Below are positions 1-63,868 of a stretch of 64,000 nt of DNA, piece after piece. Each line of letters begins with the position of its first letter. Position 1 is the stretch's first letter. The position numbers and the translations under genes are program-made. The stretch is from NCBI GenBank assembly GCA_037447655.1, contig JBBHKE010001262.1, positions 16,659 through 80,658 of the forward strand. The letters run 5' to 3'. Below the pieces are notes generated by a model. That model saw only the letters and a list, made by a program, of their open reading frames with translations. It ran no database searches and was not told where the DNA came from. This DNA is from Zygnema cylindricum. Taxonomy: Eukaryota; Streptophyta; Zygnematophyceae; Zygnematales; Zygnemataceae.

Positions 1-487
1 CGGGTTTCAATCTTAGCCGTCATAAATACCTGCGCGGTATTTATTTCACACTTGAAACAAATGCGAGATATTCTTTTCGAGATATTCCGTATCCTGTACA
101 ATACAAACTTTATCTATGTCATAATATTTTGTTAAATGAAATAGTCTACGTGTAAACATTTACATAATTATCAAACCTTATACTACATAACACAGGTCTT
201 AGACTAATTGGATAAAACTGTCGCCTATCGACGACTTTGACAGATGTCAAGTACTAGGTTCAAATCCTGGGTTCGTCAAGTACCATTTTGGAAAATCTAC
301 CAATCTACTATCTCTCTCCCTCTGGATAGCATAGGTAGGCATGGCTCTAGCTCTCTCTCCAACTTTCAGTGATTGCGACAAGTGTGGGAGCTAAAGAGAG
401 GAGTTAGAGGCAGACTGCCTCTGCTTCTTTTGTGCATTTTATCTTTTATATAACTTAGAAAATACTAAAAAACCTTTAATTTATACA
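1..487 (-). repeat. H1 3' LTR (partial, cut by window edge)
   Basis: In element sense the LTR starts TGTATAAATT at 487. It matches 11074-11560 of the 5' LTR. It contains the conserved stem-loop (about 346-407) and an antisense tRNA-like unit (197-289). The remaining half lies outside the window. Confidence 0.85.
197..289 (+). ncRNA. candidate antisense tRNA-like Pol III unit (H1 3' LTR)
   Basis: Box A-like CTAATTGGATAAAACTG, then a T-arm CTAGG-TTCAAAT-CCTGG containing a B box, then TTTT at 286-289. The unit runs opposite to the element. Transcription is inferred only. Confidence 0.5.
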
Positions 488-500
488 AACCCCTTCTTTT
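488..500 (-). promoter_or_regulatory. H1 polypurine tract
   Basis: The minus-strand purine run AAAAGAAGGGGTT abuts the 3' LTR. This is the expected plus-strand primer site of reverse transcription. Confidence 0.7.
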
Positions 501-1543
501 CTAGTCACTTTTATTTTAAGTTTACACTTCTCTCCGCAGAAAATTAGTTTAGGGGAATGCAAAGGTTTGGTCATTATATTTGCTACCATTTCAATATCTG
601 GTTTATACTCTAAACTGCTTATCTTGTTTTCTACTTTCTCTCGAATGAAGCCAAGTCTAATGTCTATATGTTTGACTTTAAAGTGATGTTTAGGATTGGC
701 AGAAATGGCAATGGCTACCTGATTATCACAAAACACCTTTTGGACACCACTCTTAAGATGACCAAGCTCACCAAGCAAAGACTTGACCCACATTAATTCT
801 TTTACAGCAGAGCAAGATGCCATGTCCTCAGCCTCCATGGTAGAGTGGGCAATGACCTTTTGCTGCTTGCTGCTCTAGCTGAAAGCCCCTTCACCCACAT
901 ACAAAACAAACCTAGACGTGCATCTCCTCATAGGAGCATCCCCATAGCTGGCATCACTCCAAGTGGTGATGTTATTATTGCTCCCACTCAAATGCAACCA
1001 TAGATCTCTAGTCCCTATGAAATACCTAAAGACGCGCGTAGCTGCATCCGAATCCTTCTTAGTGGGAGCATTGATACCCCTACTTAGTACTCTTAAAGCT
1101 GTGGCTATATCTGGGCGGTTACAATTCATAAAATATATTAGGCTGCCGACTACTTGCTTATAAGGAATTGTCTACATAAATCTTTTCTCTTCAGGGCCTA
1201 ACTCATCATCCAAAATTATAACTCCCTCTTTCACACGCCCCTCACTTCCCTTTTTGCCTGGGGCAAATGTCTCCTCGTAGTCAATTCCCTCTTTCTGGGT
1301 AAATCCTTTCGCCAATAATTGAGTCTTATAGCGCTAAATGGTGTTATCCGGGTTGAGTTTTAGCTTAAATACCCACTTTCACCCAATTGGTTTCTTGGTA
1401 ATTGAGGCCATCTCCTCATTAATGGGTGTTTTCCACCGGTTTCTCTCAAGACAAGTCATTTCCTCATTATAAGTTTGAGGTTCATCGGGGTGAGACAGTT
1501 TGGTTTCTTTATTGTAAACTTGTCTCTCTTGCAATCTTTTGCT

Positions 1544-1548
1544 GCTTC
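1544..1548. other. E1 target site duplication, left (GCTTC)
   Basis: GCTTC here matches GCTTC at 7780-7784, the other side of E1. It is an exact 5-bp duplication typical of copia integrases. Confidence 0.85.
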
Positions 1549-2461
1549 TGTTGAAAAGAGGTAATTAATAGTTCACTTCTCTATTTTAGTTTTACTTTAA
1601 AGAAAGAGAGTAAGGATCAAAGGCACGCCATGGCTGTCGCCGTAATTAGAAAGTGGCAGATTTTTGAACTAGAGGATATTTTACTAAAATGTTGCCTAAG
1701 TCAAGATTTGAACCTGGGGCTGTGGACCTCTATATAGTCGTACGTCTTAACCACTAAGGCGTTATCGAAACGATACACGTGACTGGTTTCAAAGATATAT
1801 AAAGATTAACGCAACAACTAATTAAAAGTAGACTAACCAAAAGGAGCAATCCATGCATGTACGCGAATCTGAACCGTGTAAAATATGTTTTGATCGGACG
1901 ACCGACATTGTAGCCGCCACGCGAAGTGAGCTTTTGGCGTCATTTGGAGATAACGTTACGCGGTGCCACGTGGCGCCACATTATTTGATACCGGAGAAGA
2001 TGGGAGGAGGAACCATGGCTCCTGATTTGACAGGTGTCACCTTGTAGACCATGTCGTACAATGGCCGTACATTAAGTACATCTCCTATTGTACCTTCTTG
2101 TACTATATAGTGTTCCTATTGGACTAGGGTTTAGTAGTAGGTAGTCGTGAGTAGGCAGACAAAGAATTAGTGATGTTTAGGTACCTCTCTCTAAGAGAGC
2201 TTGTAACTATAAAGGTCATCTTTGACCAGCCATAACTTACTGCTGAGGGGAGCAAATTCAGTGATTTTTTTGCGTTTGACTCAAGGGAGTCTTGTCCTCA
2301 CAGGGATGAGGTAGTCTTGTCCTCACAGGGATGAGGGTGGTCAGAATATTTGTGTGCTAAGGCGGCACTTATTCAGTGGGAAAGTGGAAGGGGCAAATAT
2401 TATCCAAGAGGCTTTACATAGGCTGCTCATTCTGTGGGTCAATAGAGACCACACAAATTCA
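1549..2461 (+). repeat. E1 5' LTR
   Basis: Begins TGTTGAAAAGAG and ends ...ATTCA. It holds an antisense tRNA-like unit (1686-1760), a G-box within CCACGTGG near 1968, a GTAC array (2053-2105), TATAAAGG at 2218-2225 and a leader hairpin GACTC-AAGG-GAGTC at 2278-2291. The gag start in the LTR tail reads ATA (2442-2444), whereas the 3' LTR keeps ATG. Confidence 0.9.
1686..1760 (-). ncRNA. candidate antisense tRNA-like Pol III unit (E1 5' LTR)
   Basis: Read on the minus strand from 1760: acceptor-like GCCTTAG pairs 6 of 7 with CTTAGGC at 1694-1700. D-arm box A TGGTTAAGACG, B-box GGTTCAAATCT, then TTTT (1686-1689). The core is 67 nt. It is the clearest cloverleaf in the set. Confidence 0.55.
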
Positions 2462-6892: not shown

Positions 6893-7779
6893 TGTTGAAA
6901 AGAGCTAATTAATAGTTCACTTCTCTATTTTAGTTTTACTTTAAAAAAAGAGAGTGAAGATCAAAGGCACGCCATGGCTGCCGCCATATTTAGAAAGTGA
7001 CAGATTTTTGAAGTAGAGGATATTTTACTAAAATGTTGCCTAAGTAAAGATTTGAACCTGGGTCTGTGGACCTCTATATAGTCGTACGTCTTAACCACTA
7101 AGGCGTTATCGAAAAGATACACGTGACGGGTTTCAAAGATATATAAACATTAACGGAACAGCTAATTAATAGCAGACTAACCAAAAAGAGCAATCCATGC
7201 ATGTACGCGAATCTGAACCGTGTAAAATATGTTTTGATCGGACGGCCGGCATTGTAGCCGCCATGCAAAGTGAGATTTTGGCGTCATTTGGAGATAGCGT
7301 CACGCGGTGCCACGTGGCGCCACATTATCTGATACTAAAGAAAATTGGAGGAGGAACCATGGCTCTTGATTTGACTGGTGTCACCTTGTAGACCATGTCG
7401 TACAATGGCCGTACAATAAGTACATCTCCTATTGTACCTTTTTGTACTATATAGTGTTCTTATTGGACTAGGGTTTAGTAGTAGGTAGTCATGAGTAGGC
7501 AGACAAAGACTTAGTGATATTTAGGTACCTCTCTCTAAGAGAGCTTGTAACTATAAATGTCATCTTTGACCAGCCATAACTTACTGGTCAGGGAGCAAAT
7601 TCAGTGATTCTTTTTGCGTTTGACTCAAGGGAGTCTTGTCCTCACAGGGGTGAGGGTGGTTAGAATATTTGTGTGCCTGGGTGGCACTTATTCAGTGGGA
7701 AAGTGGAAGGGGCAAATATTATCCTAGATGCTTTACATAGGCTGCTCATTCTGTGGGTCAATGGAGACCACAAAATTAA
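6893..7779 (+). repeat. E1 3' LTR
   Basis: Partner of 1549-2461 with scattered changes and small indels. It retains the gag ATG (7761-7763), TATAAATG at 7552-7559, the GTAC array and an antisense tRNA-like unit at 7030-7104. It is followed by the right duplication GCTTC (7780-7784). Confidence 0.9.
7030..7104 (-). ncRNA. candidate antisense tRNA-like Pol III unit (E1 3' LTR)
   Basis: Same 67-nt core as at 1694-1760 (7038-7104 here), with box A, box B and TTTT (7030-7033) on the minus strand. Confidence 0.5.
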
Positions 7780-10517: not shown

Positions 10518-11560
10518 TGTAACTCTGAGACCTCCATAGGTCATCAGGATGGGCAACTCACACGAAGCCTTTAAAATAACCTTGACCCTTTAGTGTTTCA
10601 GCAAAAATAATTGCCACTGTGGCAGAAGAAAACTCTGACCACCTTTACCATTGTGAAAGAAAGACTCCCTTGAGTCGATAGGAAAAATAATTTATGTAAT
10701 TTCTCCCCTGAGCAGTTAGTTAAGGTGGGTCAAAGTTGACGTTTTGTACAAAAGCTCTCTCGGAGAGAAGGTCCAATCAACCAGATTTTTCTAAGTCCTA
10801 CCTCTCTCTAAAAATCTATATATTGACGTACGACACCAATCACAATACAATGTCGTTCATAAAGGTACAAGTGCTGGTGTACTTTCTATACGGACATTGT
10901 ACGACATGGCCAGAAAATCAACACATGTCATATCTAGATTCGTTCCTGTAATTCCCGGAGATGCCGCAATCCATTGTGGTTGTGCCACGTGTAAATCGAT
11001 GTGGCGATGAGCGCAAACCGCCGAAATCCTATTCCGCGATCTGTACTTTATTAGCGGCCGTCCGATCGAAACCGGGTTTCAATCTTAACCGTCATAAATA
11101 CTTGCGTGGTATTTATTTCACACTTGAAACAAATGCGAGATATTCAAATCGAGATGTTCCGTATCCCATACAATACAAACTTTATCCATGTCCTAATATT
11201 CGTTTAAATGAAATAGTCTACGTGTAAACATTTATATAATTATCAAACCTTATACCACGTAACCTAGGTCTTAGACTAATTGGAAAAAACTATCGCCTAC
11301 CAACGACTTTGACATACAGAAGGTACTAGGTTCAAATCCTACGTTCGTCAAGTCTTATTTTGGTAAATCTACCAATCTACTATCTTTCTCCCTCTGGATA
11401 GCATAGGGAGCCATGGCTCTAGCACTCTCTCCAACTTTCAGTGACCGCCACAAGTGTGGGAGCTGAAGAGAGGAGTTAGAGGTAGACTGCCTCTGCTTTT
11501 TTTCTCCATTTTATCTTTTACAAAACCTAGAAATTTTTAGAAGAACCTTTAATTTCTACA
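10518..11560 (-). repeat. H1 5' LTR
   Basis: 1043 bp, TGTAGAAATT...GTTACA in element sense. It includes the stem-loop, an antisense tRNA-like unit (11266-11361), a G-box (CCACGTG near 10986), a GTAC-rich promoter (10830-10910) and the leader hairpin GACTC-CCTT-GAGTC (10663-10676). The gag ATG is at 10537. Confidence 0.9.
11266..11361 (+). ncRNA. candidate antisense tRNA-like Pol III unit (H1 5' LTR)
   Basis: Box A region TTAGACTAATTGG, T-arm CTAGG-TTCAAAT-CCTAC, then TTTT at 11358-11361. Copy of the unit at 197-289. Confidence 0.5.
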
Positions 11561-12880
11561 GCACTCGCCGCCAAATGGTTACGGCAACAAGTACATTCTA
11601 TCCGTGTTAAGGCTTGTGTGCGGGGTTTAGGTGGAGGAGGGGAGAGAGAGAGAGAGGGGGTCTTGTCATCATAATTTCCCAGTATATGAAGCTAGTTCTA
11701 TTAAAGATGGGCACCCTAGAGTGTGGGCCAATAACATGTAACTTTGAGACCTCCATAGGTCATCAGAATGGGCAGCTCACACAAAGCCCCTAGGATAACC
11801 CTGACCTTTTAGTGTTTCAGCAAAAAAAACTTCCACTCTGGCAGAAGAAAACTTTGACCACCTTCACCCTTGTGAAAGAAAGACTCCCTTGAGTTGATAG
11901 CAAAAAGAATATATGAAATTGCTCCCCTGAGCAGTTAGTTATGGTGGGTCAAAGTTGACCTTTTGTACAGAAGCTCTCTTTGACAGAGGGTCCTATCTAC
12001 AAGATTTTTCTAAGTCCTACCTCTCTCTAAAACTCTATCTACTGACATACGGCACCAATCACAATACAATGTCTTTCAGAAAGGTACAAGTGCTATTGTA
12101 CTTTCTGTACGGAAATTGTACGACATGGCTAGAAAGTTGACACATGTCATATCTAGATTCGTTCCTGTAATTCCCGGAGATGCCGCAATCCATTGTGGTT
12201 GTGCCACGTGTCATTCGATGTGGCGATAAGCGCAAACCGCCGAAATCCTATTCCGCGATCTCGACTTTCTTTGCGGTCGTCCGATCGAAACCGGATTTCA
12301 TTATTAGCCGTCATAAATACTTGCGCGGTATTTATTTCACACTTGAAACAAATGCGAGATATTTGTTTCGAGATGTTCCGTATCCCCTACAATACAAACT
12401 TTATCGATGTCCTAATATTCCGTTAAATGAAATAGTCTACGTGTAAACATTTATATAATTATCAAACCTTATACTACGTAACCCAGGTCTTAGACTAATT
12501 TGATAAAACTATCGCCTACCGGCGACTTTGACGGACAAAAGGTACTAGGTTCAAATCCTAGGTCCGTCAAGTACCATTTTGGTAAATCTACCAATCTACT
12601 ATCTTTCTCCCTCTGGATAGCATAGGTAGGCATGGCTCTAGCTCTCTCTCAAACTTTCAGTGATTGCGACAAGTGTGGGAGCTAAAGAGAGGAGATAGAG
12701 GCAGACTGCCTCTGCTTCTTTTCTGCATTTTATCTTTTACAAAACCTAGAATACTACTAAAAAAACCTTTAATTTCTACAGCACCTGCCGCCAAATGGTT
12801 ATGGCACCCAGTACATTTTTTTGTGTTGAGCTTGTGAGCGGGGTTTAGGTGGAGGATGGGAGAGAGAGAGAGGGGGCGAG
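11561..12880 (-). repeat. tandem duplication of gag start, H1-type LTR and flank
   Basis: After H1's 5' LTR comes a flank of about 100 bp (11561-11661). Then a short gag fragment (11662-11736, VIGPHSRVPIF on the minus strand), a second complete LTR (11737-12780, 1044 bp), and the same flank again (12781-12880, beginning GCAC.TGCCGCCAAATGG). The unit gag-start/LTR/flank is thus repeated head to tail with moderate divergence. Unequal exchange or a segmental duplication explains it better than a second insertion, because the flank is copied too. Confidence 0.8.
12486..12580 (+). ncRNA. candidate antisense tRNA-like Pol III unit (second H1-type LTR)
   Basis: Best H1-type copy. Inner hairpin TCGCC-TACC-GGCGA, perfect T-arm CTAGG-TTCAAAT-CCTAG (12545-12561), TTTT at 12577-12580. 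Confidence 0.55.
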
Positions 12881-14108: not shown

Positions 14109-14198
14109 TGTTGAAATTAATAGATTCCTAGAGTATTTTCTAGGTTTAAATATGTTTGTATAAAAGAAAAGAAAAGGATGGGCAGCCTGCCTCCGCCT

Positions 14199-14247: not shown

Positions 14248-14301
14248 TGGTTGATCCATGGCTGCCTTAGTTCAACAGGCAGTTATTTTTAGTAGGTTAC
14301 T

Positions 14302-14394
14302 AAAAATATATCTGACGGACTCGGGATTTGATCGCGGTACCTGCGGTTCGTCAAGTTGGCCGATAGCGGTCAGCTTTATCCTATTAGACTAGGA
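14302..14394 (-). ncRNA. candidate antisense tRNA-like Pol III unit (E3 5' LTR)
   Basis: Minus strand: box A-like TAGTCTAATAGGATAAAGC, B-box region GATCAAATCCC, then T5 (14302-14306). Confidence 0.5.
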
Positions 14395-14923
14395 CCAATG
14401 CTAAATGATATATTATGTGATAGATATATATAAATTTAGGGAGGAACAAATCTATTTAACTAAAATTGTATACGGCATGCATAGATACAGTTTTATGAAA
14501 GTACCAAGTACGATTCTATTTCAAAACGGATACCACGCATTTTGTTTCGACATTGAAACAAATGTCGCGCAAGTATTTATAACAGCTAAGATTGCGTCTC
14601 ATTGCTAATCCAATGGCGCACATCATCGCCAAAATCCCGGAGTGGTCACTTTGGCTTTTTGTGACGTGGCATGACCTGGAGCCACGTGGAGAGATGACAT
14701 TCCGTCATGGGAATTCTGAGGAATGTACGGACGAGTAAAAAGCAAACACGCGTCCGCTTAATAGCCTTGTCGTACATTGGCCGTACAAAAGGTACACCGA
14801 CAGTAGTACTTTTTGGTACGTACAGTAATCTGATTGGTCCGTACTTCAGTAGATAGAAGTTATTAGAGGGAATCACGACTTAGAAAATTTTGGTAGGTAG
14901 TCACGTCTCTTTTTGAGAGTTTG

Positions 14924-15124: not shown

Positions 15125-16612
15125 ATGGAGGACACAGAATTGCAGGTTATGGGCCCACCCTCTAAGGTGCCCACCTTCAATGGATTTGGGCTCTTCTATT
15201 GGGAAGTCATGATGATGGGAGCTTTGTGCAAAAAACGATAATGGGGTATTGTTAGTGGACAAGTGAAACGTCCATCTTCGGGAACTCCACCAGGATTTGG
15301 AGGAGTAAGGTTTCTTGCAGTAACAGCTGCCTTAGCGGAGGAGGCAGATGATGGGGACAACATTTTTTCTGAAAAGGGGAAAGGAAAGGAGACACCCCTC
15401 ACTCCTATTGCCACAGTCCCGGGATCGGCGACCGTGAAGACCGCGAAGAACGATACTCAAATGTGGAAGGATGTAAACATGGCTGCCAGGAACTTCATTT
15501 TCAGGCACCTCACTGAAGTTTTGGCCACTCCTCATCTTCACATTTACAAGGCTGAGGAGTTGTGGGTGAGTTTGGTGGAGATTTATAGAGTTGGAACTAT
15601 TCAGGAGCTCCAGTTGGCTGAGCAAAAGCTAGTGAGTTACACTAACAAAGGAGGAAAGATGTTAGATTACTGTAATGATCTTTCTTGTTTGTATATGGAG
15701 ATGGAAAGTACCGGATGGACAGGTACAATGAAAATGAAAGTTAACACCCCTATCATGAATTTACTGGATGAGTACGAGAACAGAGTGTACATGGTACAAG
15801 AAATGGTTGATAGTTCATGGAAATGGAACACAGTGGTAAGGATGATACTTGTGCAGGAAAACACAATGAAGATTAAGAGAGTAGGAAAGAGCATTCAAGC
15901 TCTAGAAGTAGGAGGGGATCGATGGGGGAAAGACGTGAAGAAATTGTACAAAGGAGAAAGAGATCATTTTGGAGGACCGAGGCCCCCAAAGTGTCTTTGA
16001 CATTTTTGCAAAAAGCCGGGACACTTCATTGCAGATTGTGTCAAGCTGTCGGAGCTGAGGCTCCAAGAGTACTGTGGAGGGGGTTTTTCCGGAGGGAAGA
16101 AAAAGGCAATTGTGGTTGCAAAAGTGACTAGAGAAACCGATGATGAGTCTTTTGAGAGGATGGGGAGCTTCTTCTTGACGAGAATCTGGAGGAGAAGGAG
16201 ATCCCTCGTAGACAGAAATGTGCACTTGGAGCAATTCGGGAGGCTCCACAAGAAGGATGGATCATCGACTCATGTGCATCCATGCATATATGTCGTGATA
16301 AGGAACTCTTTACTAAGCTAAGAAAAAAATCCCTACTGTAAAGATAGAGTATGGATATGGGAGAGTGGTAACTACAGATCTAGTGGGATCAGTAGATCTG
16401 AAAGTCTTAGTGGAGGGTAAGACTTATAAACTTACATTCTCAAATGTACTATACATTCCTCAGCTGAGTAAAAATCTTGTCTCTACGTCTGTGTTAAATG
16501 ACAAAGAGTTTGATACCTTCACTAGAAAGGGAGTCTTTACAGCTAAGTATGGGATGAAGTTTACTTCACAACAGATAAGGGTAGCCGAGGAATGTTTAGG
16601 CTTAACATGAGT
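15125..16612 (+). pseudogene. E3 gag-protease
   Basis: ATG at 15125 lies 20 nt inside the LTR; gag starts MEDTELQVMGPPSKVP. A TAA at 15239-15241 stops it after 38 codons, then the frame stays open to 16000 through the gag helices. The zinc knuckle is broken by TGA in place of its first Cys (CL*HFCKKPGHFIADC, about 15990-16040). The protease region (16110-16330) is frameshifted and its DSGAS is degraded. The segment 16365-16610 is the post-protease strand region. About 240 residues of gag remain readable. Confidence 0.87.
15145..15159 (+). promoter_or_regulatory. E3 primer binding site inside gag
   Basis: GGTTATGGGCCCACC follows the LTR with no gap. It is the exact complement of GGUGGGCCCAUAACC in the anticodon arm of plant initiator tRNA-Met, and it is read as gag codons (VMGPP). 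The tRNA sequence is from memory of the family. Confidence 0.85.
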
Positions 16613-19475: not shown

Positions 19476-19485
19476 ATAACGGGAG

Positions 19486-20524
19486 TGTTGAAATTAATAG
19501 ACTATTAAAGTATTTTTTAGGTTTAAATATGTTAGTATAAAAGAAAAGAAAAGGACGGGCAGCCTGCCTACACCTCCTCTCTCTAGCCCCCATACTTGTT
19601 GTAGTCACTAAAGGGTAGAGAGGGTGGTTGATCCATGGCTGCCTTAGTTCAACAGGCAGTTATTTTTAGTAGGTTACTAAAAATATACCTAACGGACCCG
19701 GGATTTGATCCCGGTACCTACGGTTCGTCAAGTTGGCCGATAGCGGTCAGCTTTATCCTATTAGACTAGGACCAATGCTAAATGATATATTATGTGATAG
19801 ATATATATATATATTTAGGGAGGAACAAATCCATTTAACTAAAATTGTATACGGCATGCATAGATACAGTTTTATGAAAGTACCAAGTACGATTCTATTT
19901 CAAAACGGATACCACGCATTTTGTTTCGACATTGAAACAAATGTCGCGCAAGTATTTATAACGGCTAAGATTGCGTCTCCCTGCAAATCCAATGGCGCAC
20001 ATCATCGCCGAAATCTCGGAGTGGTCAATTTGGCGTTTTGTGACGTGGCATGACTTGGAGCCACGTGGAGAGATGACATTCGGTCATGGGAATTCTGAGG
20101 AATGTATAGACGAGTGAAAAGCAGACACGCGTCCGCTTAATAGCCTTGTCGTACATAGGCCGTACAAAAGGTACACCGGCAGTAGTAATTTTTGGTACGG
20201 TACAGTAATCTGATTGGTTCGTACTTCAGTAGATAGAAGTTATTAGAGTGAATCAAGACTTAGAAAATTTTGGTAGGTAGTCACCTCTCCCTTTGAGAGT
20301 TTGTATAAATTGGCATTTTTACTGCCTCATAACTTATCGGCTAGTTGGCCGTTTTCAATGAATCTTTTTGCTACGGACTCAGGGGAGTCCAAGCTGCATA
20401 GGGAAGCAATCAAACTATAATTTTGCCTTCTTGGACAGCAATGGTTGTGGCTTGAAGTGGGTTAGTTAAATACTATCTAGAGGCTTCCTGTATTCTGTGG
20501 TCCAATGGAGGACACAGAATTGCA
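19486..20524 (+). repeat. E3 3' LTR
   Basis: Partner of 14109-15144. Stem-loop 19576-19624, antisense tRNA-like unit 19679-19773, TATAAATT 20304-20311, gag ATG at 20505. Purine tract AAAATAACGGGAG precedes it. Confidence 0.92.
19679..19773 (-). ncRNA. candidate antisense tRNA-like Pol III unit (E3 3' LTR)
   Basis: Perfect T-arm CCGGG-ATCAAAT-CCCGG on the minus strand (about 19698-19714), box A TAGTCTAATAGGATAAAGC, T5 terminator (19679-19683). Confidence 0.55.
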
Positions 20525-21398
20525 AAGAAGAAAGAGAGTGGTGGAGCCATGGCTGCCTGAGCTCCATAGGTAGGACTTAAGAGTGACATGAGTGACTCTG
20601 AACAAAAAGGTTCATTCCAGCAGGACTCGAACCTTCGTCCGGCAGAGCGCGGTGTAGCCGTGAGCTCTAACCAGTATGTCGTAGGAGTTCGTTAAAGTAC
20701 ATAGGGTGTGATAATTACTTAAACTGTATTATCATCTTTCATGAGATTAACAGACATATGAATGATGGTACATAGAACTAGTTAACATTTAGTGTGAATG
20801 TGATCCCGCACGAAACAAATGAATCGGATATTTGTTTCGACTGCTAACATTTAATGTCGGTTTTTATCCAACAGCACATACCGCCGCCCAGATCCCGGAA
20901 TGGTCACATTGGCGTTTTTTGGATGTGGCATGACCTGGCGCCACGTGGAGAGATAATATTTGGTTGCGAGAATTCCGGAGAACATAAAGACGAGTACCAT
21001 GTGGACATGCGTCCACTCAATGGCCTTCTCGTACACAGACAGTATAGAAAGGACATAGGCCATAATACCTTTCTGTACTTTACAATTATTTTATTGGATC
21101 GTACTGTAGTAGATAGGGGTTTTGAGAGGGAAGACTTAGAATTTATTTTGATATGCACCTCTCTCTTTGAGAGTTTGTATAAATTAACATCTTTGCCACC
21201 TCATAACCTATCGGTTGGTTAGCCGTTTTCAGTGATTCTTTTTGCTACGGACTCAGGGGAGTCTATATTACACAGGGTGGCATTTAAGTTGTGAATTTGA
21301 CAGCTTAGGCCGCAGTGGTTGTGGCTGAAAGTGGGTTTGCTAAAAACTACCTAGAGGCTTTCTCAATTCTGTAGTCGAATGGAGGACACAAAAATGCA
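20525..21398 (+). repeat. H2 5' LTR, second part
   Basis: Continues 13978-14108 after E3: AAGAAGAAAGAGAGTGG..CCATGGCTGCC. Then an antisense tRNA-like unit (20604-20690), G-box near 20941, TATAAATT 21178-21185, leader hairpin 21250-21263, gag ATG 21379, end TGCA at 21398. Total LTR length is about 1005 bp. Confidence 0.88.
20604..20690 (-). ncRNA. candidate antisense tRNA-like Pol III unit (H2 5' LTR)
   Basis: Minus strand: D-arm TACTGGTTAGAGCTCACGG, perfect B box GGTTCGAGTCC (20623-20633), T5 (20604-20608). It is closest of all units to canonical Pol III control boxes. Confidence 0.6.
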
Positions 21399-22700: not shown

Positions 22701-23245
22701 AGTGGAGGGTAAGACTAAAGTACTCACCTTCCCAGATGTACTCTATATTCCTCAATTGAGTAAAAATCTTGTCTCTATGTCAGTGTTAGATGACAAAGAG
22801 TTTGATACCTTCACCAGAAACGGAGTCTTTAAAGCTAAGTATGGGGATGAAGTCTACTTCACGGCAGATAAGGGTAGCCAACGAATGTTTAGGCTTAACC
22901 TGAGTTATGAAAAGAATAATGCTTACTATGTTAGTGGTCCAAAGTTGATGATTTAGCATAAGCGGTTGGGGCATGTGCATTTTGATAGGCTTAAGGAAAT
23001 GAAGAAGCTTGGTGTAGTAAAAGGCATTCACTTTGGGGATAATGAAATGGTGGATGATTGTAGTGGCTGTGCTCAAGGTAAGGCTCATAAACTTGTTTTT
23101 CCCAAAGCCGCCACATATAGGGGTGACAAAGTACTAGATTTCGTCCACACAGATATTTGGGGACCTGCAAAAGTACCTTTGGTCGGAGGGAAGAGGTTTA
23201 TGTTGACAATAATCGATGACTGGTCTACATACTCTAGAGTCTAAT
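22701..23245 (+). pseudogene. H2 GAG-pre-integrase and integrase N-part
   Basis: Readable from VEGKTKVLTFPDVLYIPQLSKN through the HxxxH zinc finger. TGG to TAG at 22954-22956 breaks LWHKRLGH. HTDIWGPAK carries the first catalytic Asp (about 23147). It stops at WSTYSRV where D1 is inserted and resumes at 29531. Confidence 0.87.
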
Positions 23246-24246
23246 TGTTGATTTGAGGCAGCTGGTGCCACTGAAGAAGATGAAGAAGCACCGGCAGTTG
23301 CCATGATAATCAATTGTGCAAAGAGGAAACTCTCACGAAATCCCACAAACAACCAACTTCACAATGAAGCTCCAAACAAACCAGACACACCCAAGGTCTG
23401 CAAATTTGCCACAATATAAAATATACACCAAAGAAACCACATGCAGAATTTCACAAAGTTCTGTTAAAAGATCACAATGATCTTATAATTCAACCACACC
23501 ATAAAACTGCTTCGCAGTTTTTCCTACACAGCAATCCTACTTTTCTTAAAGTAATCTAAGTCCTATATATACAAGTGAGCCTACGATTGATCACACCGTA
23601 CTACAAATAGCGTGGTCAAATGGTACACTACTCTTCATTAACAAAAATCCCACCGTCGAATGCACATAATTATTTCCACCAATCAGACTGCAGCTAGAAA
23701 TGAAATAGTACGCAGTTAAAGTTCGTCCGCTGAAATGACGGTACAGTCAATACTTCTCTTCCAAAAATGACGGCGGACTTCGTCTGCTTTCCACATATTC
23801 TTTCATCACCAAAGATGAGCCTCCACGTATAAATTTGGTCCTCAAATGTAACTGTACATTTTCTTCTAGAACAACCAAACTTGACTTTCTCACGGACCGA
23901 CACGTGTGCCTAAAGTGCACCGAATCTGTGTACTCCCTTTCGAGTTACAAACTCACTAAATCATGTCCCCGTCAATTTATCTTCACACAAACTGACTCAT
24001 ATTCAGAACACCTTTCTTGCGCAGACTGCTATGACTGCTATGACTGCTATGACTGCTATGACTGCTATGATCTGTCAGCGCAGCTGTGATATTAGAGCAG
24101 CGCAGCTGCGATGTCAGATCAGAGCACCATAGCAGCACGGCAACAAGTGTAGAGTGCTCAAGGTTTCTAGCTGCGATGTCAGACTTAGCGCAGCATGGTA
24201 ACATAGCAGCAAGATATAGAGAGAACTTAAGGTTTCCAAAACAACA
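23246..24246 (-). repeat. D1 3' LTR
   Basis: In sense TGTTGTTTTGG...CAAATCAACA. It contains five 9-bp GACTGCTAT repeats (24024-24068), a TATATATA box (about 23563-23572) and a hairpin AAAACTGC-GAA-GCAGTTTT (about 23503-23520). Confidence 0.95.
24024..24068 (+). repeat. 9-bp tandem repeat in D LTR
   Basis: GACTGCTAT five times, identical in the other D1 LTR (29303-29347) and degenerate in the solo D LTR (about 42774-42830). In element sense it lies in U3 near the LTR start. Confidence 0.9.
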
Positions 24247-24259
24247 CTCCCCTAAACCT
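24247..24259 (-). promoter_or_regulatory. D1 polypurine tract
   Basis: The minus strand AGGTTTAGGGGAG directly precedes the 3' LTR start TGTTG. Confidence 0.75.
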
Positions 24260-24269
24260 TTAGACTCTC

Positions 24270-29525: not shown

Positions 29526-29530
29526 CTACT

Positions 29531-34347: not shown

Positions 34348-35311
34348 TGTAATTTTGTGACCTCCATTGGTACACAATTGTCCAGCTTATGTGAAGCCTC
34401 TAGGATAGTATATGCACTCTTGACTTTGACGATGAATAAGTCCCACCCTGGGACGCAAAAAATCAGACCGACTACATCTATGTATAGCCTTGACCCCTTT
34501 GAGTGCGCTGCAAAAAGAATCACTGAAATTGCTCCTTTGAACATCAAGTTATAGCTGACCAAAGTTGGTCCATAAATACGAGTGCACTCTGGGAGAAAGG
34601 CTGAAAAACCAAAAATATTCTAAGTCCTAAGCTACCTCTCTAAACCTATTACTAGGGTACTCGACCAATCACATGACTCTAAAGTACAAGAAGGTACAAG
34701 TACCGTTTTACTTCTTATAGGGCCATAGTACGGCATGACCGGTCCGCTGACGCGTGTCACTTCCGGAGCCATAGTTGCTCCTCCCGTGATATCCGCTGTC
34801 CAACCATATGTTGCCACGTGTCATCCGTCGACATCTGGTCCGCAAACTGCCAAACTGCTATTCTAGTATTCCGGCTCCATTGTGAGCCGTTCGATCAGAC
34901 TCGGACATTTGATTTCGTCCGTCAAAATTAAATGTCGATTCGTATATTTTGTGCGGTCTCGATTTCGTGCGGACCGGTATGTTTCCATTCATAAATCTTC
35001 CCGTAAATAGTTAAATGGAGTATCCGACGCTGTACTACTTTAAATAAATATCGCGCCTACTGCGTCTATCGATTACTTCAAAACCTACTGGATAAGGCAG
35101 ACGGCTAGTCCGTACGGCGGTCATCCAAAGGTCACTCGATCAAGTCCCACAATTGACAGTCTATATTTTGCAAAAACTATACTAGTGATCTGTCTGCCTC
35201 TTTAGCTGCAAGAGGTAGCCATGGTTGCTTGCAAGTCCTCACTGACTACGACAAGTATGAGGGCTGTAGTAAGGTCACAAGAAAGACTACAAAATACCTC
35301 TCTTTTAAACA
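34348..35311 (-). repeat. E 3' LTR
   Basis: TGTTTAAAAGAG...AAAATTACA in sense. It keeps the gag ATG codon context (MEVTKL), the conserved loop (about 35240-35262, plus-strand complement) and an antisense tRNA-like unit (35081-35169). AAAATAAGGGGAG (35312-35324, minus) precedes it. Confidence 0.9.
35081..35169 (+). ncRNA. candidate antisense tRNA-like Pol III unit (E 3' LTR)
   Basis: Box A ACTGGATAAGGCAGACGG (tRNA-Arg-like D arm), B-box region GATCAAGTCCC, TTTT at 35166-35169. Confidence 0.5.
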
Positions 35312-39709: not shown

Positions 39710-40637
39710 TGGTACACAGAATGTCCAGCTTATGTGAAGCCTCTAGGATAGTATATGCAATTTTGACTTTGACAATGAATAAGTCCCACCCTGGGACGCA
39801 AAAACTCTGAATAAGTATACCTATGTATAGGGTGGAATCCCCTTAGTCCGCTGCAAAAAGAATCAATGAAGAAGTTATGATTGACCAAAGTTTGTCCATA
39901 AATACAAGTGTACTCTAGGAGAGAGGCTGAAAAATAAAAAATATTCTAAGTCCCAAGCTACCTCTCTAAACCTATTACTAGGGTACTTGACCAATCACAT
40001 GACTCTAAAGTAGAAGAAGGTACAAGTATCGTTGTACTTCTTATACGGCTATAGTACGCCATGGTCGGTCCGTTGACGCGTGTCACTTCTGGAGCCGTTG
40101 TTGCTCCTCCCGTGATATCCGTTGTCCAACCATATGTTAGCACGTATCATCCGCCGACATCGGGTCCGCAAACGGCCAAACTGTTATCTGGCATTCCGGC
40201 TCCACTGTGAGCCGTTCGATCAGACTCGGACATTTGATTTCGTCCGTCGAAATTAAATGTCGATTCGTATATTTCGTGCGGTCTTGATTTCGTGCGGATT
40301 GGTATGTTTCCATGCATAAATCGTCCCGTAAATAGTTAAATGGAATATCCGATGTTGTACATCTTTAAATAAATATCGCGCCTACTACGTCTATCAATTA
40401 CTTCAAGACCTACCGCATAAGGCGGACGGCTAGTCCGTACGATGGTCATCCATAGGTCACTTGATCAAGCCCCACAATTAAAAGTCTATATTTTGCAGAA
40501 AACTATACTAGTGATCTGCCTGTCTCTTTAGCTGCAAGGGGTTGCCATGACTGCCTGCAAGTCCTCAGTGAATACGATAAGTATGAGGGCTGCAGTAAAG
40601 TCAGAAGAAAGACTACAAAATACCTCTCTTTTCAACA
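39690..40637 (-). repeat. E 5' LTR
   Basis: TGTTGAAAAGAGAGG...ATTACA in sense. It holds the stem-loop (about 40555-40605), an antisense tRNA-like unit (40406-40494), a GTAC array and the gag ATG at 39709. Confidence 0.9.
40406..40494 (+). ncRNA. candidate antisense tRNA-like Pol III unit (E 5' LTR)
   Basis: Copy of 35081-35169: box A CTACCGCATAAGGCGGACGG, B-box region GATCAAGCCCC, TTTT at 40491-40494. Confidence 0.45.
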
Positions 40638-40930: not shown

Positions 40931-41940
40931 TGTTGAAAATATTAGATTTTTATGGTATTTTCTAGGTCTAAATAGATCAGTACAAAATAAAAAGAAAAGG
41001 GCGAATAACCTGCCTCCACTTCTCTCTCTACCCACCATACTTGTTGTAGTCACTAAGGGATAGAGAGGGTGGTTGAGCCATGGCTGTCCTAGTTCAACAG
41101 GTAGAACTAAAGAGTGACTTATGTCACTCTCAACAAAATGTTGAGTCAAGTAGGACTCAAAACCTCTGACCGGCAGAGCGAGGCTTAGCCGTCAGCTCTA
41201 ACTGGTCTGTCATAGAAGTTCGTTGAAATATATAGGGTGTTATATTTATTTAAACTATGTTTTTGACCTTGAATCCGATTAACGGAATGACGAATGAAAC
41301 AACATAAAACCAAGTAATATATAGTCCGACACATTATCTCGCACAAAACAAATGAATCGGACATTTTTATCGACGGCTAATATTACATGTCGGTTTGTAA
41401 TTCGACGGCACATATCGCAGCCGAAATCGCGGAACGGTCACCTTGGCGGTTTGTGGACGTGGGGTGACCTGGCAACACGTGGAGAGATAACATTCGGTTG
41501 TGAGAATTCTAGGAACAGAAGGACGACTTAAAAGTGGACACTCGTCCACTCAATGGCCTTGCTGTACGCAGGCTGTACAGAAAGTACATCGGTCGTAGTA
41601 CTTTTTTGTACCCTACATTCGTTTGATTGGTTTGTACGTTAGTAGATAGGGGTCGTGAGAGGGGTTTAGAACTTAGAGAGTTTATTAGGTAGTGATCTCT
41701 CTCCTTTAGGGGGTTTTGTATAAACTTGGCCTATTTGCCACTACATAAGTAATCGGTTAGTTGGTTGTTTTCATTGATTCTTTTTGCTACACACTCAGTG
41801 GAGTCCAAGCTCCACAAGAATGTTGTCAAACTGTCAGTTTGCTCTCTTGGGCAGCAGTGGTTATGGCTTGAAGTGGGTTAATTAAAAATTATCTAGAGGC
41901 CTCTTGAATTCTGTAGTCCAATGGAGGACACAAAATTGCA
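40931..41940 (+). repeat. Ec 3' LTR
   Basis: 1010 bp, TGTTGAAAAT...AAATTGCA. Stem-loop 41022-41068 (CTCTCTCTACCC/GGGATAGAGAG), antisense tRNA-like unit 41135-41213, GTAC array near 41565-41640, leader hairpin near 41793-41805. Confidence 0.9.
41135..41213 (-). ncRNA. candidate antisense tRNA-like Pol III unit (Ec 3' LTR)
   Basis: Same type as H2: ACTGG..TTAGAGCTGACGG on the minus strand, a damaged B box (AGGTTTTGAGTCC), TTTT at 41135-41138, followed by a GAGTGAC..GTCACTC hairpin. Confidence 0.45.
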
Positions 41941-44418: not shown

Positions 44419-45420
44419 TGCAATTCTGTGTCCTCTATTGGACTACAGATTTCAAGAAGCCTCTAGATAGTTTTTAACTAACCCACTTTCAGCCACAACC
44501 ACTACTGCCCTAGCGGACAATTTGATAATCTAACTGCAACTTTGGGTAATCTGGACTCCTCTAAGTATGTAGGATAAAGAATCACTGAAACAGCCAACCA
44601 AGCGATTAGTTATGGGGTGGCAAAAATACTAATTTATACAAACTCTCAATAAGAGAGATTAATGTCTAAAAAAGTTTCTAAGTCCTAAACCCCTCTCACA
44701 ACCCCTATCTACCATAATACAATCCAATCAAATCACTATATAGTACTGAAAGATACTACGGCCGATGTACTTTTTGTACGGCAGGTGTACAACAAGGCCA
44801 TTAAGTGGACGCATGTCCACTTTAAACTCGTCCTTATGTTCACCGGAAATCTCGAGAGCAAATGTTATCTCTCCACGTGTCACTAAGTCACGCCATGTCC
44901 GAAAACTGCCAAAGTGACCATTGCGGGATTTCGGCAGCGATATGTGCCGTCGGATCAAAAACCGACATTTAAAATTAGTCGTCGAAACAAATGTACAATT
45001 TATTTATTTCGTGCGAGATCAAGTTCGCACTATATTACTTGGTTCTATGTTCTTTTATTCGTCATTCCGTTAATCGAATTTAGGATCATAACACAGTTTA
45101 AATAATTATCACACCCCATGTATTTTAACTAACTCTTTTGGCAGACCGGTTAGAGCTGACGGCTACGCCTCGCGCGGCCAGTCGGAGGTTCGAGTCTTGC
45201 CGCACTCAACCTTTTGTTGAGAGTGACTTATGTCACTCTTTAGTCTTGCTTGTTGAACTAAGACAGCCATGGCTCCACCACTCTTTCTCTCCTTCAGTGA
45301 GTGCAACAAGTATGGGGGCAAGAGAGACGGGGTGGAGGCAGACTGTCTGCATTTTTCTTGTCATTTTCCGCAAATATATTTTGACCTAGAAAATACCCTA
45401 TAAATCTAGTAGTTTCAATA
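44419..45420 (-). repeat. Ef 3' LTR
   Basis: 1002 bp; sense start TATTGAAACT (TG mutated to TA), end GAATTGCA. Stem-loop 45275-45335 with outer stem CCACC/GGTGG, antisense tRNA-like unit 45138-45215. The tract AAAATAAGTGGAG lies at 45421-45433. Confidence 0.88.
45138..45215 (+). ncRNA. candidate antisense tRNA-like Pol III unit (Ef 3' LTR)
   Basis: D-arm GACCGGTTAGAGCTGACGG, B box GGTTCGAGTCT (45187-45197), TTTT 45212-45215, then a GAGTGAC-TTAT-GTCACTC hairpin (45231-45238 region). Confidence 0.55.
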
Positions 45421-50973: not shown

Positions 50974-51980
50974 TGCAATTTTTTGCCCTCCATTGGACCA
51001 CAGAATACAAGAAGCCTCTAGATAGTTTTTAACTATCCCACTTTAAGCCACAACCACTGCTGCCCAAGAAGGCAAACTGAAAATTTGACTTCTCCCCTGT
51101 GTAGCTTGGACTCCTTTGAGTCCGTAGCAAAAAAAATCACTAAAAAGGGCCAACCAGCCGATAAGTTATGAGCCGGCAAAAATGCCAATTTATACAAGGC
51201 TCTCTTAGAGAGAGAGGTGTCTATCTACCAAAAATTTCCTAAGTCCTAAATCTCTCTCACAACCCCTATCTACTAAAGTACGAACCAATTATATTAGTGT
51301 AAAGTATAGAAAGGTACTACGGCCGATGTCTTTTCTGTACGGCCGGTGTACGAGAAGGCTATTGAGTGGACGCGTGTCATTTTTCCACTCGTTCGTATAT
51401 TCTCCGGAATTCTCGCGACCGAATGTCATCCTTCCTCGGGTGCCACGTCATGCCACGTCCATAAAATCCAAAGTGACCATTCCGCGATCTCGGCGATGAC
51501 GTGCGCCATCGGATTAAATCCGACATTAAATGTCGATCGTTTAAAATAAATGTCCGTTTTATTTGTTTCGTGCGAAATGACGTTCGCACTAAACCTTAAC
51601 AAGTTCTATGTTCGTTTCGTCCATATTTTAGTTAAATCATTTCAGTGAAGTACAATAATTTATATATAAATGAAACTCTATATCATCTAACGGACTTTCT
51701 ACGACAGACTCGTTAGATCTAACGGCTACGCCGCGCTCTACCGGTCGGGGGTAGGAGTCCTGCCGAACTCAACATTTTGTTGAGAGTGACTTATGTCACT
51801 CTTTAGTCCTTCCTATTGAGCTGAGGCAACCATGGCTCCATCGCTCTCTCGCTTCTTCAGTGACTACAACAAGTATGGGGGAAAGAGAGAAGAGATGGAG
51901 GCAGGCTGCCATCATTTTCTATATATGTTTTCGCTAATTTACTTTAGACCTAGAAAATACAAAAACTAGTTATTTCAACA
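50974..51980 (-). repeat. solo A-type LTR in U
   Basis: 1007 bp related to the Ef and Ec LTRs, with flanks GTTGT (50969-50973) and GTTCT (51981-51985). Stem-loop 51838-51898 (outer stem CCATC/GATGG), antisense tRNA-like unit 51701-51778, leader hairpin GGACTC-CTTT-GAGTCC (51108-51123). Confidence 0.9.
51701..51778 (+). ncRNA. candidate antisense tRNA-like Pol III unit (solo LTR)
   Basis: H2/Ef type: ACTCGTTAGATCTAACGG, degenerate B box GGTAGGAGTCC (51750-51760), TTTT 51775-51778. Confidence 0.45.
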
Positions 51981-59020: not shown

Positions 59021-59976
59021 GAACCGGTTGTCTCAAGTAAACAGTTTCCTCTTTATTTGCTAAAGTTAAGATTATATTTTTGATGAAGTTAGCGTAGTTC
59101 ATAGATTCAGCACAAAATTGCAATCCTATTTTTTTATCAGTTAGCATACTTCTATACATATCTCCTAGAGTTCTATTGTCTCTTTTTGCTACTCTATTTG
59201 TTCCGGATTATAAGGAACATTTTTCTTATAATGAATTCCTTCCTCTTTAATAAATTCTTCAAATTCCCTTGAGGTGTATTCTTTCCCATTATCACTTCTT
59301 ATCTCTTTTATTGAGGTTTCATATAGTTTTTCCCTCCATACTTAATATTCTTTGAAACATCTAATACCTTTGACTTATGCCAAATAAAGTTTACCTTAGT
59401 ATATCTAGACTAATTATTTGTGATGGTTAGCATCCACCTTTTTCCCCCATGTGAAGCATACCTAGCAGGTACCCAAACATCAGTATCAATCAGATCCAAT
59501 ACTTTCTCTCTTCTAAATGTGGATACCTTTGGAAATAGAAGTCTATGAATCTTTCCTTTGGCACATCCACTACAATCATCCGAGGTCCCTTCATCTCCAA
59601 AAGTAATTCCATCCACTATTCCCTTTTTCTTCATTTTCTTTAAATTATCTAGATGCACATGACCCAACCTTTTGTGCCAAAGCATCATATCAGCAACTCC
59701 TCCCATTTTTCCTTCCATAAAAATTTCCTCCCCTTCCTCGCCATCATCGATGATGGTGGTAGATGTTCTAACGGTTGTAGTGGTGGAGGTGCGAGAAAAA
59801 CGTGTTCCTCCAAACCTCGGTGGTGGTGGGAATCAAATTTGTTCGGACACTATGCCCCATAGGTGCTTCTCAAAGTGTTCTTCCTCCATCATCGTTTCCC
59901 AATAAAAGAATTTGGATCCATCAAATATGGGCACCCTAGAGGGTGGGCCCATAACTTGCAATTCTCTGGTCTCCAT
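59021..59976 (-). pseudogene. G gag-integrase deletion fusion
   Basis: ATG at 59976 (METRELQVMGPPSRVPIFDG), gag N-terminus of about 75 residues with a frame problem near 59835. At a GGAGTTGC junction (about 59698) the sequence passes straight to ADMMLWHKRLGHVHL. About 1.6 kb (rest of gag, knuckle, protease) is missing. Integrase reads IDTDVWVPAR, then degrades with stops to NYANFIKN near 59080. No activity expected. Confidence 0.82.
59942..59956 (-). promoter_or_regulatory. G primer binding site inside gag
   Basis: The minus strand AGTTATGGGCCCACC differs by one base from the initiator tRNA-Met anticodon-arm complement and is read as gag QVMGPP. Confidence 0.75.
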
Positions 59977-60526
59977 TGACCCACAGAATGGGCAGCTCTG
60001 TAAAGCCTCTAGGATAATGTATGCCCTTTCCTCTTTCCTCATGAATAATTGCCACCATGGCACAAAAGTATTCTGACCACCCTCACCCCTGTGGGGACAT
60101 AAATCCCCTAAGCCAAACGCAAAAATAATCACTGACTCCTCTGAGCTGTAAGTTATGGCTGGTCAAATGTGACCTTTATAGTTATAAGCTCTTTTAGAGA
60201 GAGGTACCTAAATTTCACTAAGTCTTGGTCTACCTACTCACAGCTACCTATTGCTAAACCATAGTCCAATAGGAACATTCTATAGTACAACAAGGTACAG
60301 TGGTCGAAGTACTTCTTGTACAGCCATTATATGACATGGCTTTCAAGGTGACGTCTGTCAAATCAGGAGCCATGGTTCCTCCTCTCGTCTTCTCCGTTTT
60401 CCAATTATGTGACATCACGTGGCATCGGGTGACGCTATCTCTAAAACCCGTCAAAAGCTCATTCCGGGTGGCAGTTGCAACGACGGCCATCCGATCAAAT
60501 ATATTTACAAGGTTTTGATTCGCGTC
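59957..60526 (-). repeat. G 5' LTR, partial
   Basis: Ends GAATTGCA in sense; U5, leader, promoter region (GTAC motifs near 60295-60320) and a CACGTGG G-box near 60418. The 5' half, where a tRNA-like unit would be, is missing, replaced by H's LTR at 60527. Confidence 0.8.
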
Positions 60527-60769
60527 TGAAATTCTATGGGCTCCATTGCCCACAGAATTCGCAGATCCAAAAGAAGCTAATCTAGTAGTGTCATTTTGGC
60601 ACAAACTACGAATTAGCCTAGACAGCCATGGCTCTAGCTCTCTCTCTGGTCTTCAGTGACTGCAACAAGTATGGGGACCGGAGAGAGTTGAGCTAGAAGC
60701 AGGCTGCCTTTGCTGACTTACTCTATTTATTTTTCCAATACAGACCTAGAAAATACATAAATTTCAACA
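60527..60769 (-). repeat. H 3' LTR, 243-bp deleted form
   Basis: Keeps both LTR ends, the gag ATG (60546) and the stem-loop (60634-60696), but lacks about 985 bp including promoter and both tRNA-like units. The break lies in an imperfect short repeat (AATCTAG..AGT) present at 62866-62876 and 63849-63860 of the full LTR. Confidence 0.85.
60634..60696 (-). other. conserved LTR stem-loop (H 3' LTR)
   Basis: Strongest copy: CTAGCTC..TCTCTCTGGTC pairs with GACCGGAGAGA..GAGCTAG around the loop CTTGTTGCAGTCACTGAAG (element sense). The stem differs in sequence from the other LTRs while pairing is kept. Confidence 0.7.
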
Positions 60770-62797: not shown

Positions 62798-62812
62798 AGT
62801 GGGCCCATAACC
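62798..62812 (-). promoter_or_regulatory. H primer binding site inside gag
   Basis: The minus strand GGTTATGGGCCCACT follows the LTR end and pairs with the initiator tRNA-Met anticodon arm at 14 of 15 positions; it is read as gag VMGPL. Confidence 0.8.
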
Positions 62813-63631
62813 TGAAATTTTATGGGCTCTATTGCCCACAGATTTCGCAGATCCAAAAGAAGCTAATCTAGATAGTGCCGACTCCAAGTTGATATAACCT
62901 CAAATGAATGATCCCTTGACAATTAGAACCCCAATACACCTTCACCCTTGTGAAGAGAAGACCTTCTGTGTGCTCAGTTCCACCACAGAATGCAAAGTTT
63001 GAATATGTGTTTTGGACAATATTCCCCACTTTGACTTTCCCGTTGAATAAGTGCCACCCTGGCACGCAATGACTCTGACCAGCTACACCCCTGTGTTGCT
63101 TGGACTCCCTTGAGTTCGCAGCAAAAAGAATCACTGAATTTGCTCACCCGAGCATTAAGTTATGGCTGGTGAAAGATGACCTTTATAGTTACAAGCTCTC
63201 TTGGAGAGAGTTACCTAAATATCACTAAGTCCTGGTCTGCCTACTCACGACTACCTACTACTAAACCCTGGTCCAATAGGAACACTTTATATTACAAAAA
63301 GGTACAATGGGCGATGTACTTATTGTACGGATATTGTACGACATGGTCTACAAGGTGACACCTGGTAAATCGGGAGCCATGGTTCCTTCTCCCATCTTCT
63401 CTGGTATCAAATAACGTGGCGCCACGTGGCAATGCATGACGTTATCTCCGAATGCCCCCAAAAGCTCACTTCGCGTGGCGGCTACAATGTCGGTCGTTAG
63501 ATCAAAACATAATTTACACTGTTTAGATTCGCGTACATGCAGGAATTGTTCCTCTTCGTTAGTCTAGTGTTAATTAGCTGATGCGTCAAGGTTTATATTC
63601 CTTTGAAACAAGACACCCGTATCGTTTCGTT

Positions 63632-63708
63632 AGCGCCTTGTTGGATAAGGCATACCACTACAATCAATTCTATATACCCAGGTTCAAATCTGGTTAGGAG
63701 CAGTTTTT
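63632..63708 (+). ncRNA. candidate antisense tRNA-like Pol III unit 1 (H 5' LTR)
   Basis: Acceptor-like GCGCCTT pairs 5 of 7 with the 3' segment AGGAGC. Box A TTGTTGGATAAGGCATACC, T-arm CCAGG-TTCAAAT-CTGG, then TTTTT (63704-63708). Confidence 0.55.
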
Positions 63709-63790
63709 GGTTATTTGTTGGTTTGTTAAAATTCTCTACTTGTTTCCTGATAAAAACCTATTATAACAAACGTATTCCATTGTTGACTCT

Positions 63791-63868
63791 AAGTTATAGG
63801 CTAAAGCTATCGGCTGTTAGAGGGTGGTAGGTACTAGGATCAAATCTTGAATCTAGCAGTATCATTTT
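63791..63868 (+). ncRNA. candidate antisense tRNA-like Pol III unit 2 (H 5' LTR)
   Basis: Box A TATAGGCTAAAGCTATCGG, B-box region AGGATCAAATCTT, TTTT 63865-63868. It lies about 80 bp after unit 1; this is the only LTR in the window with two units. Confidence 0.45.

Follow-up and report, generated by a model that had tools for sequence, protein, structure and literature searches.

Transfer RNA (tRNA)-derived short interspersed elements (SINEs) keep a degenerate tRNA head for its boxes A and B (see also the introduction of PMC10886601). Among long terminal repeat (LTR) retrotransposons, Helenus elements are 311–1263 bp long and non-coding, and their tRNA-like part is regarded as their own promoter; members from fungi show a link to Copia, and a primer-binding site of the anticodon part is the usual one (PMC10886601). 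Kojima 2024 states that not a few Repbase LTRs resemble part of a tRNA, of which only short ones were followed up (PMC10886601), and in feline foamy virus A/B box sequences are named in the U3 microRNA (miRNA) cassettes (PMC8674446). We describe tRNA-like units that run antisense within the LTRs of a group of coding Ty1/copia retrotransposons in the alga Zygnema cylindricum. The analysis covers one 64-kilobase (kb) stretch of contig JBBHKE010001262.1 (called the window) with about six related lineages of these elements, in which copies within a lineage share descent.

The units share their motifs, order, orientation and spacing, and they are more conserved than most of their surroundings. The initial annotation had listed 15 units in 13 LTRs, each with a box A-like segment, a box B-like segment and a T4–T5 run, and all opposite in direction to their element. 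All 15 intervals do hold these features (box A being weak, and units 11 and 13 having a damaged box B), and all 15 units are antisense to the element that carries them; our list of LTRs gives 14 rather than 13, with units 14 and 15 in one LTR. By our own grouping, units 1, 4 and 5 form lineage F1, units 2, 3 and 14 F2, units 6 and 7 F3, units 8, 11, 12 and 13 F4, units 9 and 10 F5, and unit 15 F6. Read in the antisense direction, each unit has in order a TATA-like A/T-rich block (not distinct in unit 15), the box A-like segment, C32-T33 at tRNA spacing, box B, A73 and the T4–T5 run, and boxes A and B stand in the order and at the distance permitted for type-2 RNA polymerase III (Pol III) promoters. 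The box B core GWTCRANYC is intact in 13 of the units. Box A is weaker than box B; its 3' half (GG..A21..C25) is retained, while T8 is often lost, as are further positions on the 5' side. The T4–T5 run begins 13–19 nucleotides (nt) past C61 in every unit, as against 36 of 212 candidate pairs of boxes A and B that lie outside units. The TATA-like block lies 41–42 nt before box A in 14 units (the distance to T8 is 41 in 13 units, whereas unit 13 has 42 and unit 15 has 40), with a strict TATA pattern in 13 of the 15 and a CAA start motif in three. The distance from box A to T33 is constant throughout and box B follows T33 at 22, 23 or 31, an arrangement that fits the fixed-then-flexible order expected of type-2 promoters.

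Sites found by models built without the window fall on the units. A covariance model was made from 20 eukaryotic tRNAs (ARAGORN accepts them as the intended tRNAs) and run over the window with filters off at E<=10. The six best of the 17 matches (E-values of 5e-6, 0.00026, 0.0027, 0.0034, 0.0058 and 0.019, which are rough because the calibration was short) all lie in units on the antisense strand, and the seventh has a value of 0.27; altogether nine matches are in units on that strand, two overlap units on the wrong strand and six are elsewhere. A weight-matrix scan for boxes A and B gave 229 candidates in the window, the ten best of which are all units, each followed by T4–T5. At 18 bits or more there are nine candidates, every one a unit, while 60 whole-window shuffles gave a mean of 1.42 and a maximum of 4; at 12 bits there is no excess (17 against 20.3 in the shuffles). 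When box A, box B and T4 were all required and each LTR was compared with 200 shuffles of itself, the antisense strand reached p<=0.02 in 11 of 15 LTRs (10 of them at the floor of 0.005), and the LTR from which the unit is deleted (L15) gave none; the sense strand, judged against the antisense shuffles, reached p<=0.05 in 0/15 LTRs, and LTRs of a second copia group (B type) gave 0/3. The initial annotation had set its claim against the outcome that tRNA-model scores would be no better than those of shuffled LTRs, and in this window the scores come out the other way. Twelve of the 15 units also exceed all 50 of their own shuffles in pairwise comparison with 23 tRNAs. Raw motif counts are not clearly above shuffles, so the signal is one of location and not of number: GWTCRANYCC occurs eight times on both strands, always in units (100 shuffles: mean 3.9, maximum 12), GWTCRANYC 16 times with 13 in units (shuffle mean 16.1), and GGTTCRA 15 times with eight in units (shuffle mean 16.0). 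Relaxed ARAGORN runs found units on the right strand in three of five predictions at 90% and seven of 32 at 80%, with a flood of predictions below that, and were not used as evidence. These results bear on the idea that the boxes belong to a sense-strand Pol II promoter and owe their likeness to tRNA boxes to convergence. The TATA-like block does read well in the sense direction, and in that direction the boxes lie just upstream of it, but the unit sites are the first choice in 64 kb both of a tRNA model and of weight matrices to which the window contributed nothing, and T33 and A73 agree with tRNA numbering as well, so that convergence of this kind seems very unlikely.

Conservation was measured on a unit-centred alignment of 227 columns with lineages equally weighted. 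Besides the unit, this alignment takes in flanks of about 130 and 90 nt, and it is against these flanks, not against the whole LTR, that its conservation values hold. The 12 positions with little or no variation in the tRNA set average 1.46 bits, compared with 0.97 over all columns, a mean matched by 14 of 20,000 random column sets and by none of the other 102 placements to which the set was slid. Thus the boxes, which according to the initial annotation should change more slowly than their flanks, do so for most of the flank in the window. The best 9-column window of unit and flanks is box B (1.59 bits), and behind it and a separate CAGCCATGG block follow windows in the T-run, the TATA-like block and the 3' half of box A. 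Regional means are 1.81 bits for the T-run, 1.41 for box B, 1.28 for the anticodon-like part, 1.25 for the TATA-like block and 1.08 for box A, against 0.62–0.84 for the linker and near flanks and 1.12 for the CCATGG side. A21, C25, T33, G53, A58, C61 and A73 are identical in all units. Within box B, positions 54, 57, 59, 60 and 62 vary between lineages while G53, A58 and C61 are fixed, and tRNA genes likewise vary at 57, 59 and 60. A whole-LTR alignment made with genafpair misaligned the units, since two of them share an LTR; its best-conserved part is the downstream half of the LTR, above U3, and its top 40 windows include none from a unit. A tRNA gene or tRNA-headed SINE that inserted backwards in an ancestral LTR and was merely inherited would also yield a common position and orientation by common descent, and the decay of box A and of some box B copies is what such a relic might undergo. 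Yet the tRNA-invariant positions and the T-run exceed most of the surrounding U3 in conservation across lineages, and we consider passive inheritance quite unlikely.

Three further observations concern conserved features in and around the units. C29, C32 and T33, which lie outside both boxes, are identical in all 15. A strongly conserved CAGCCATGGC block lies beyond the terminator, on the LTR-start side of each unit (alignment columns 313–325). In F4 a short palindrome with the T-run in its loop (CTCAAC-ATTTT-GTTGAG is one example) stands beside a larger stem-loop (41120–41145, 45205–45225 and 51770–51790), and weaker versions are present in other lineages.

The units show little sign of a common RNA structure. 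RNAalifold predicts 0 pairs for the 15 units taken together. The T-arm helix has 70.7% of cells paired compared with 64.6% in shuffled units, a value reached by 12 of 500 shuffles, and single folds clearly beat shuffles (z <= -2.3) in four units (5, 7, 8 and 11). As no shared RNA fold is predicted, the constraint looks promoter-like, that is, a DNA signal and not a structured product. A working tRNA gene was rejected on the default ARAGORN, Rfam and RNAalifold results. The same observations bear on whether boxes A and B might serve as a TFIIIC-only site, an insulator or enhancer-blocker of the LTR that Pol III transcribes hardly or not at all. Such a site would accommodate the conservation of box B, the highest of any block, as well as the weakness of box A and the lack of a predicted shared structure. 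A pure TFIIIC site needs neither a T4–T5 run nor a TATA-like block, however, and the first is retained in all 15 units and the second at a near-fixed distance in 14, which makes this alternative fairly unlikely in our judgement.

We think it probable that the ancestral U3 of this copia group held a tRNA-derived type-2 Pol III promoter and terminator, antisense to the element, although the following points weigh against that reading. Default ARAGORN finds 0 tRNAs in the window, Rfam at E<=10 gives four weak matches there and no tRNA, and some of the covariance matches consist of the T arm and a local stem without a cloverleaf. Three LTRs (L12, L13 and L14) reach p values of 0.085–0.109 only in the per-LTR test, units 10, 11 and 13 fail to exceed all 50 of their own shuffles in the tRNA comparison, and unit 8 scores higher on the opposite strand (46.1) than on its own (43.0). 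Box A is degenerate, with strict-column values of 0.28 bits for T8 and 0.62 for A14 (low values that, in our reading of the alignment, are partly due to a one-base difference in D-loop length between lineages), two copies of box B are damaged, and A54, present in three lineages, occurs in the tRNA yardstick only in initiator tRNA. The unit alignment was partly guided by the motif itself, and in it the CAGCCATGG block, at 1.54 bits, is nearly as conserved as box B. The stretch beyond the TATA-like block is also near-constant (25–27 nt in 12 of 15 units, the exception being F2), so spacing alone is moderate evidence. The TATA-like block reads TATATAA or TTATTTAAA in the sense direction in 11 of 15 LTRs and cannot be credited to Pol III alone. 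Finally, the copies within a lineage are not independent.

If this Pol III promoter reading is right, boxes A and B would be bound by TFIIIC, which would position TFIIIB some 41 nt upstream of box A, at the TATA-like block; that these factors bind, that transcription takes place and where the RNA begins and ends are what we infer. TATA-like boxes at positions -31/-24 influence type-2 genes experimentally (PMC7279448), and angiosperm tRNA genes have an upstream TATA in 22–32%, CAA in 78–82% and poly(T) in 67–72% of cases (PMC11700998). The predicted Pol III product is an antisense RNA of about 86–100 nt (its start placed 10 nt before T8 and its end at that of the T-run) that would begin in U3 and, because Pol III would stop at the T4–T5 run ahead of the 5' end of the LTR, would stay within the LTR. 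With less confidence, we suppose that the benefit to the element is regulatory and comes from occupancy by TFIIIC, TFIIIB and Pol III beside the element's own promoter, which could hold U3 open or compete with sense transcription, and not from a structured RNA product, as no shared RNA fold is predicted. As possible functions the initial annotation had named antisense RNA against U3, TFIIIC-based insulation and silencing control. That the units were kept while most of the sequence around them changed suggests a small backwards-reading control gene in these elements. Since the same block reads as TATA in the sense direction, Pol II and Pol III might share it, with TFIID and sense transcription one way and TFIIIB and antisense transcription the other; competition for a single TBP site would then give each LTR of these autonomous retrotransposons a built-in, self-limiting switch, kept through the splits between lineages, an arrangement that we mention as a conjecture and regard as unlikely.

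Many nested Ty1/copia elements fill the window. All seven frames examined show at least one copia domain, six of them in the unit-bearing group and one in the second group; gag, gag-pre-integrase, integrase and reverse transcriptase (RT) are represented among the six, one gag match being below the Pfam cut-off. In keeping with Ty1/copia membership, the unit-bearing elements have gag, integrase and RT in this order, together with LTRs and a primer-binding site. Their coding frames are broken up, which makes these copies decayed representatives of a coding lineage, and activity is not claimed for them. LTRs of this group typically begin with TGTT and end with CA, and those seen whole are each about 0.89–1.05 kb long. 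We placed 15 such LTRs, and a fragment at about 32058, too short for a unit, was excluded from all counts. Two scans found no relatives in viral contigs. In three protein searches, two of which scored just the candidates with most words in common, identities were no more than 22–44%.

Primer-binding sites like TTATGGGCCCACC follow the 5' LTRs at 2464, 15147 and 21401 on the plus strand and at 59954 on the minus strand. We read this sequence as a complement of the anticodon region in initiator tRNA-Met (tRNA-iMet), perhaps of the plant type, and this match points to a half-tRNA as primer. By eye, what looks like the beginning of gag (ATGGGCCCACC, M-G-P-P) overlaps these four sites. Ty3 has a 3' U3 segment with which the T arm of tRNA-iMet pairs (PMC5371799), and the units might similarly be complements by which the U3 of the sense genomic RNA binds its primer tRNA, as counterparts to the 3' half of the bipartite Ty3 primer-binding site. 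The antisense orientation is exactly what complementarity requires. On the other hand, while the primer-binding sites indicate the anticodon part of tRNA-iMet, plant iMet ranks between 5th and 23rd of the 23 tRNAs over the 15 units, human iMet is the lowest of the 23 on average, every unit has an elongator tRNA as its best match, and neither the TATA-like block nor the T-run is predicted by this explanation. On the primer-binding-site match and the iMet ranks (for the primer, iMet sequences alone were compared) we rejected this Ty3-like arrangement as highly improbable.

A few other features of the window may be mentioned. Of the tandem pair in one LTR (63592–63868), one unit appears by eye to be F2-like and the other closer to F1. 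The unit-less LTR at 59957–60769 seems rearranged, with an LTR-end-like piece at the place where the unit is expected. The second copia group (23245–29527) has LTRs of about 1 kb and a 961-amino-acid open frame with repeated CDAAKL motifs, and has no tRNA-like unit. The insertion at 14109–20524, into an LTR that resumes at 20525, lies near a unit; other insertions, judged by eye, are in coding regions. These cases are too few to speak for integration beside Pol III sites as a purpose of the units.

Table 1. Antisense units and associated features, in window coordinates (p values are from the per-LTR shuffle test)
Feature	Position	Strand	Parts and remarks
Unit 1	159..289	+	TATA-like 159-167, box A 200-218, box B 257-267, T4 286-289; 3' LTR of minus-strand element; covariance E 0.0027
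Unit 2	1686..1803	-	TATA-like 1795-1803, box A 1744-1762, box B 1704-1714, T4 1686-1689; 5' LTR 1549-2461; covariance E 0.00026
Unit 3	7030..7147	-	TATA-like 7139-7147, box A 7088-7106, box B 7048-7058, T4 7030-7033; 3' LTR 6893-7779; covariance E 0.0058
Unit 4	11231..11361	+	TATA-like 11231-11239, box A 11272-11290, box B 11329-11339, T4 11358-11361; covariance E 0.019
Unit 5	12450..12580	+	TATA-like 12450-12458, box A 12491-12509, box B 12548-12558, T4 12577-12580; covariance E 5e-6, match 12530-12569
Unit 6	14302..14432	-	TATA-like 14424-14432, box A 14373-14391, box B 14324-14334, T5 14302-14306; 5' LTR 14109-15144; covariance E 6
Unit 7	19679..19809	-	TATA-like 19801-19809, box A 19750-19768, box B 19701-19711, T5 19679-19683; 3' LTR 19486-20524; covariance E 0.0034; top A+B score
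Unit 8	20604..20723	-	A/T-rich block 20715-20723, box A 20664-20682, box B 20623-20633, T5 20604-20608; 5' LTR 20525-21398, start cut by insertion; covariance E 4, partial
Unit 9	35039..35169	+	TATA-like 35039-35047, box A 35080-35098, box B 35137-35147, T4 35166-35169; 3' LTR 34348-35311 (minus element); p 0.085; no covariance match
Unit 10	40364..40494	+	TATA-like 40364-40372, box A 40405-40423, box B 40462-40472, T4 40491-40494; 5' LTR 39690-40637 (minus element); p 0.090; no covariance match
Unit 11	41135..41254	-	TATA-like 41246-41254, box A 41195-41213, box B with extra base 41153-41164, T4 41135-41138; 3' LTR 40931-41940; p 0.020
Unit 12	45097..45215	+	TATA-like 45097-45105, box A 45138-45156, box B 45187-45197, T4 45212-45215; 3' LTR 44418-45420 (minus element); second-best A+B score; no covariance match
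Unit 13	51659..51778	+	TATA-like 51659-51667, box A 51701-51719, damaged box B 51750-51760, T4 51775-51778; 5' LTR 50973-51985 (minus element); p 0.109
Unit 14	63592..63708	+	TATA-like 63592-63600, box A 63633-63651, box B 63681-63691, T5 63704-63708; LTR 62813 to window end (minus element); covariance E 7.9, partial
Unit 15	63749..63868	+	no clear TATA at expected 63749-63757, box A 63789-63807, box B 63837-63847, T4 63865-63868; in the LTR of unit 14; A+B rank 18
Primer-binding site TTATGGGCCCACC	15147..15159	+	adjoins 5' LTR
Unit-less LTR of same type (internal control)	59957..60769	-	unit site deleted
LTR of second copia group (B type)	23245..24248	-	no unit; 0/3 in per-LTR shuffle test
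Further B-type LTRs	28524-29527; 41996-43008		no unit; per-LTR shuffle test

Were the units transcribed, this would be the first autonomous Ty1/copia group known to us with its own antisense Pol III gene in U3; it would offer a clean system for studying the effects of Pol III occupancy on Pol II promoters and on repeat silencing, and would warn tRNA annotators and small-RNA mappers of repeat-borne tRNA-like reads. The initial annotation knew of no such group, and among the matches listed from the open-access literature there is indeed no autonomous copia group with antisense tRNA-like units; the novelty of the units is narrowed by the tRNA-like LTRs published for the non-autonomous Helenus (PMC10886601) and by the A/B-box cassettes of foamy-virus U3 (PMC8674446). 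The units resemble tRNA-derived SINEs in having a degenerate tRNA-like part with boxes A and B, but SINEs are independent non-LTR elements whereas the unit is fixed at one place in the LTR. The Ty3 bipartite primer-binding site (PMC5371799) also involves U3 sequence complementary to a tRNA T arm, but its segment is specific to the primer tRNA and the units are not primer-like. In Helenus (TRIMp3; PMC10886601), as here, the LTR holds a tRNA-like sequence with conserved boxes A and B and mostly no functional tRNA; Helenus is a short non-coding terminal-repeat retrotransposon in miniature (TRIM), whereas here the LTRs flank gag, integrase and RT coding sequence and the unit is antisense, an orientation (antisense or opposite) that a word search of the available part of the Helenus paper did not find mentioned. 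Cassandra likewise has a small-RNA Pol III promoter within its LTR, but one of 5S type that drives its own transcript in a non-autonomous element (PMC10886601). If transcribed, the units would extend the Helenus/Cassandra idea, which concerns how very small parasites are promoted, to coding elements, where the Pol III part would be regulatory. Foamy viruses (PMC8674446, PMC7693620) are, like the elements described here, autonomous LTR elements, and theirs are Pol III-driven short RNAs from U3; they are animal retroviruses and make hairpin primary miRNAs, whereas no shared RNA hairpin is predicted here; in the passages on these cassettes neither an orientation nor a tRNA origin is given. Transcribed units would thus parallel the foamy-virus strategy outside the animal retroviruses.

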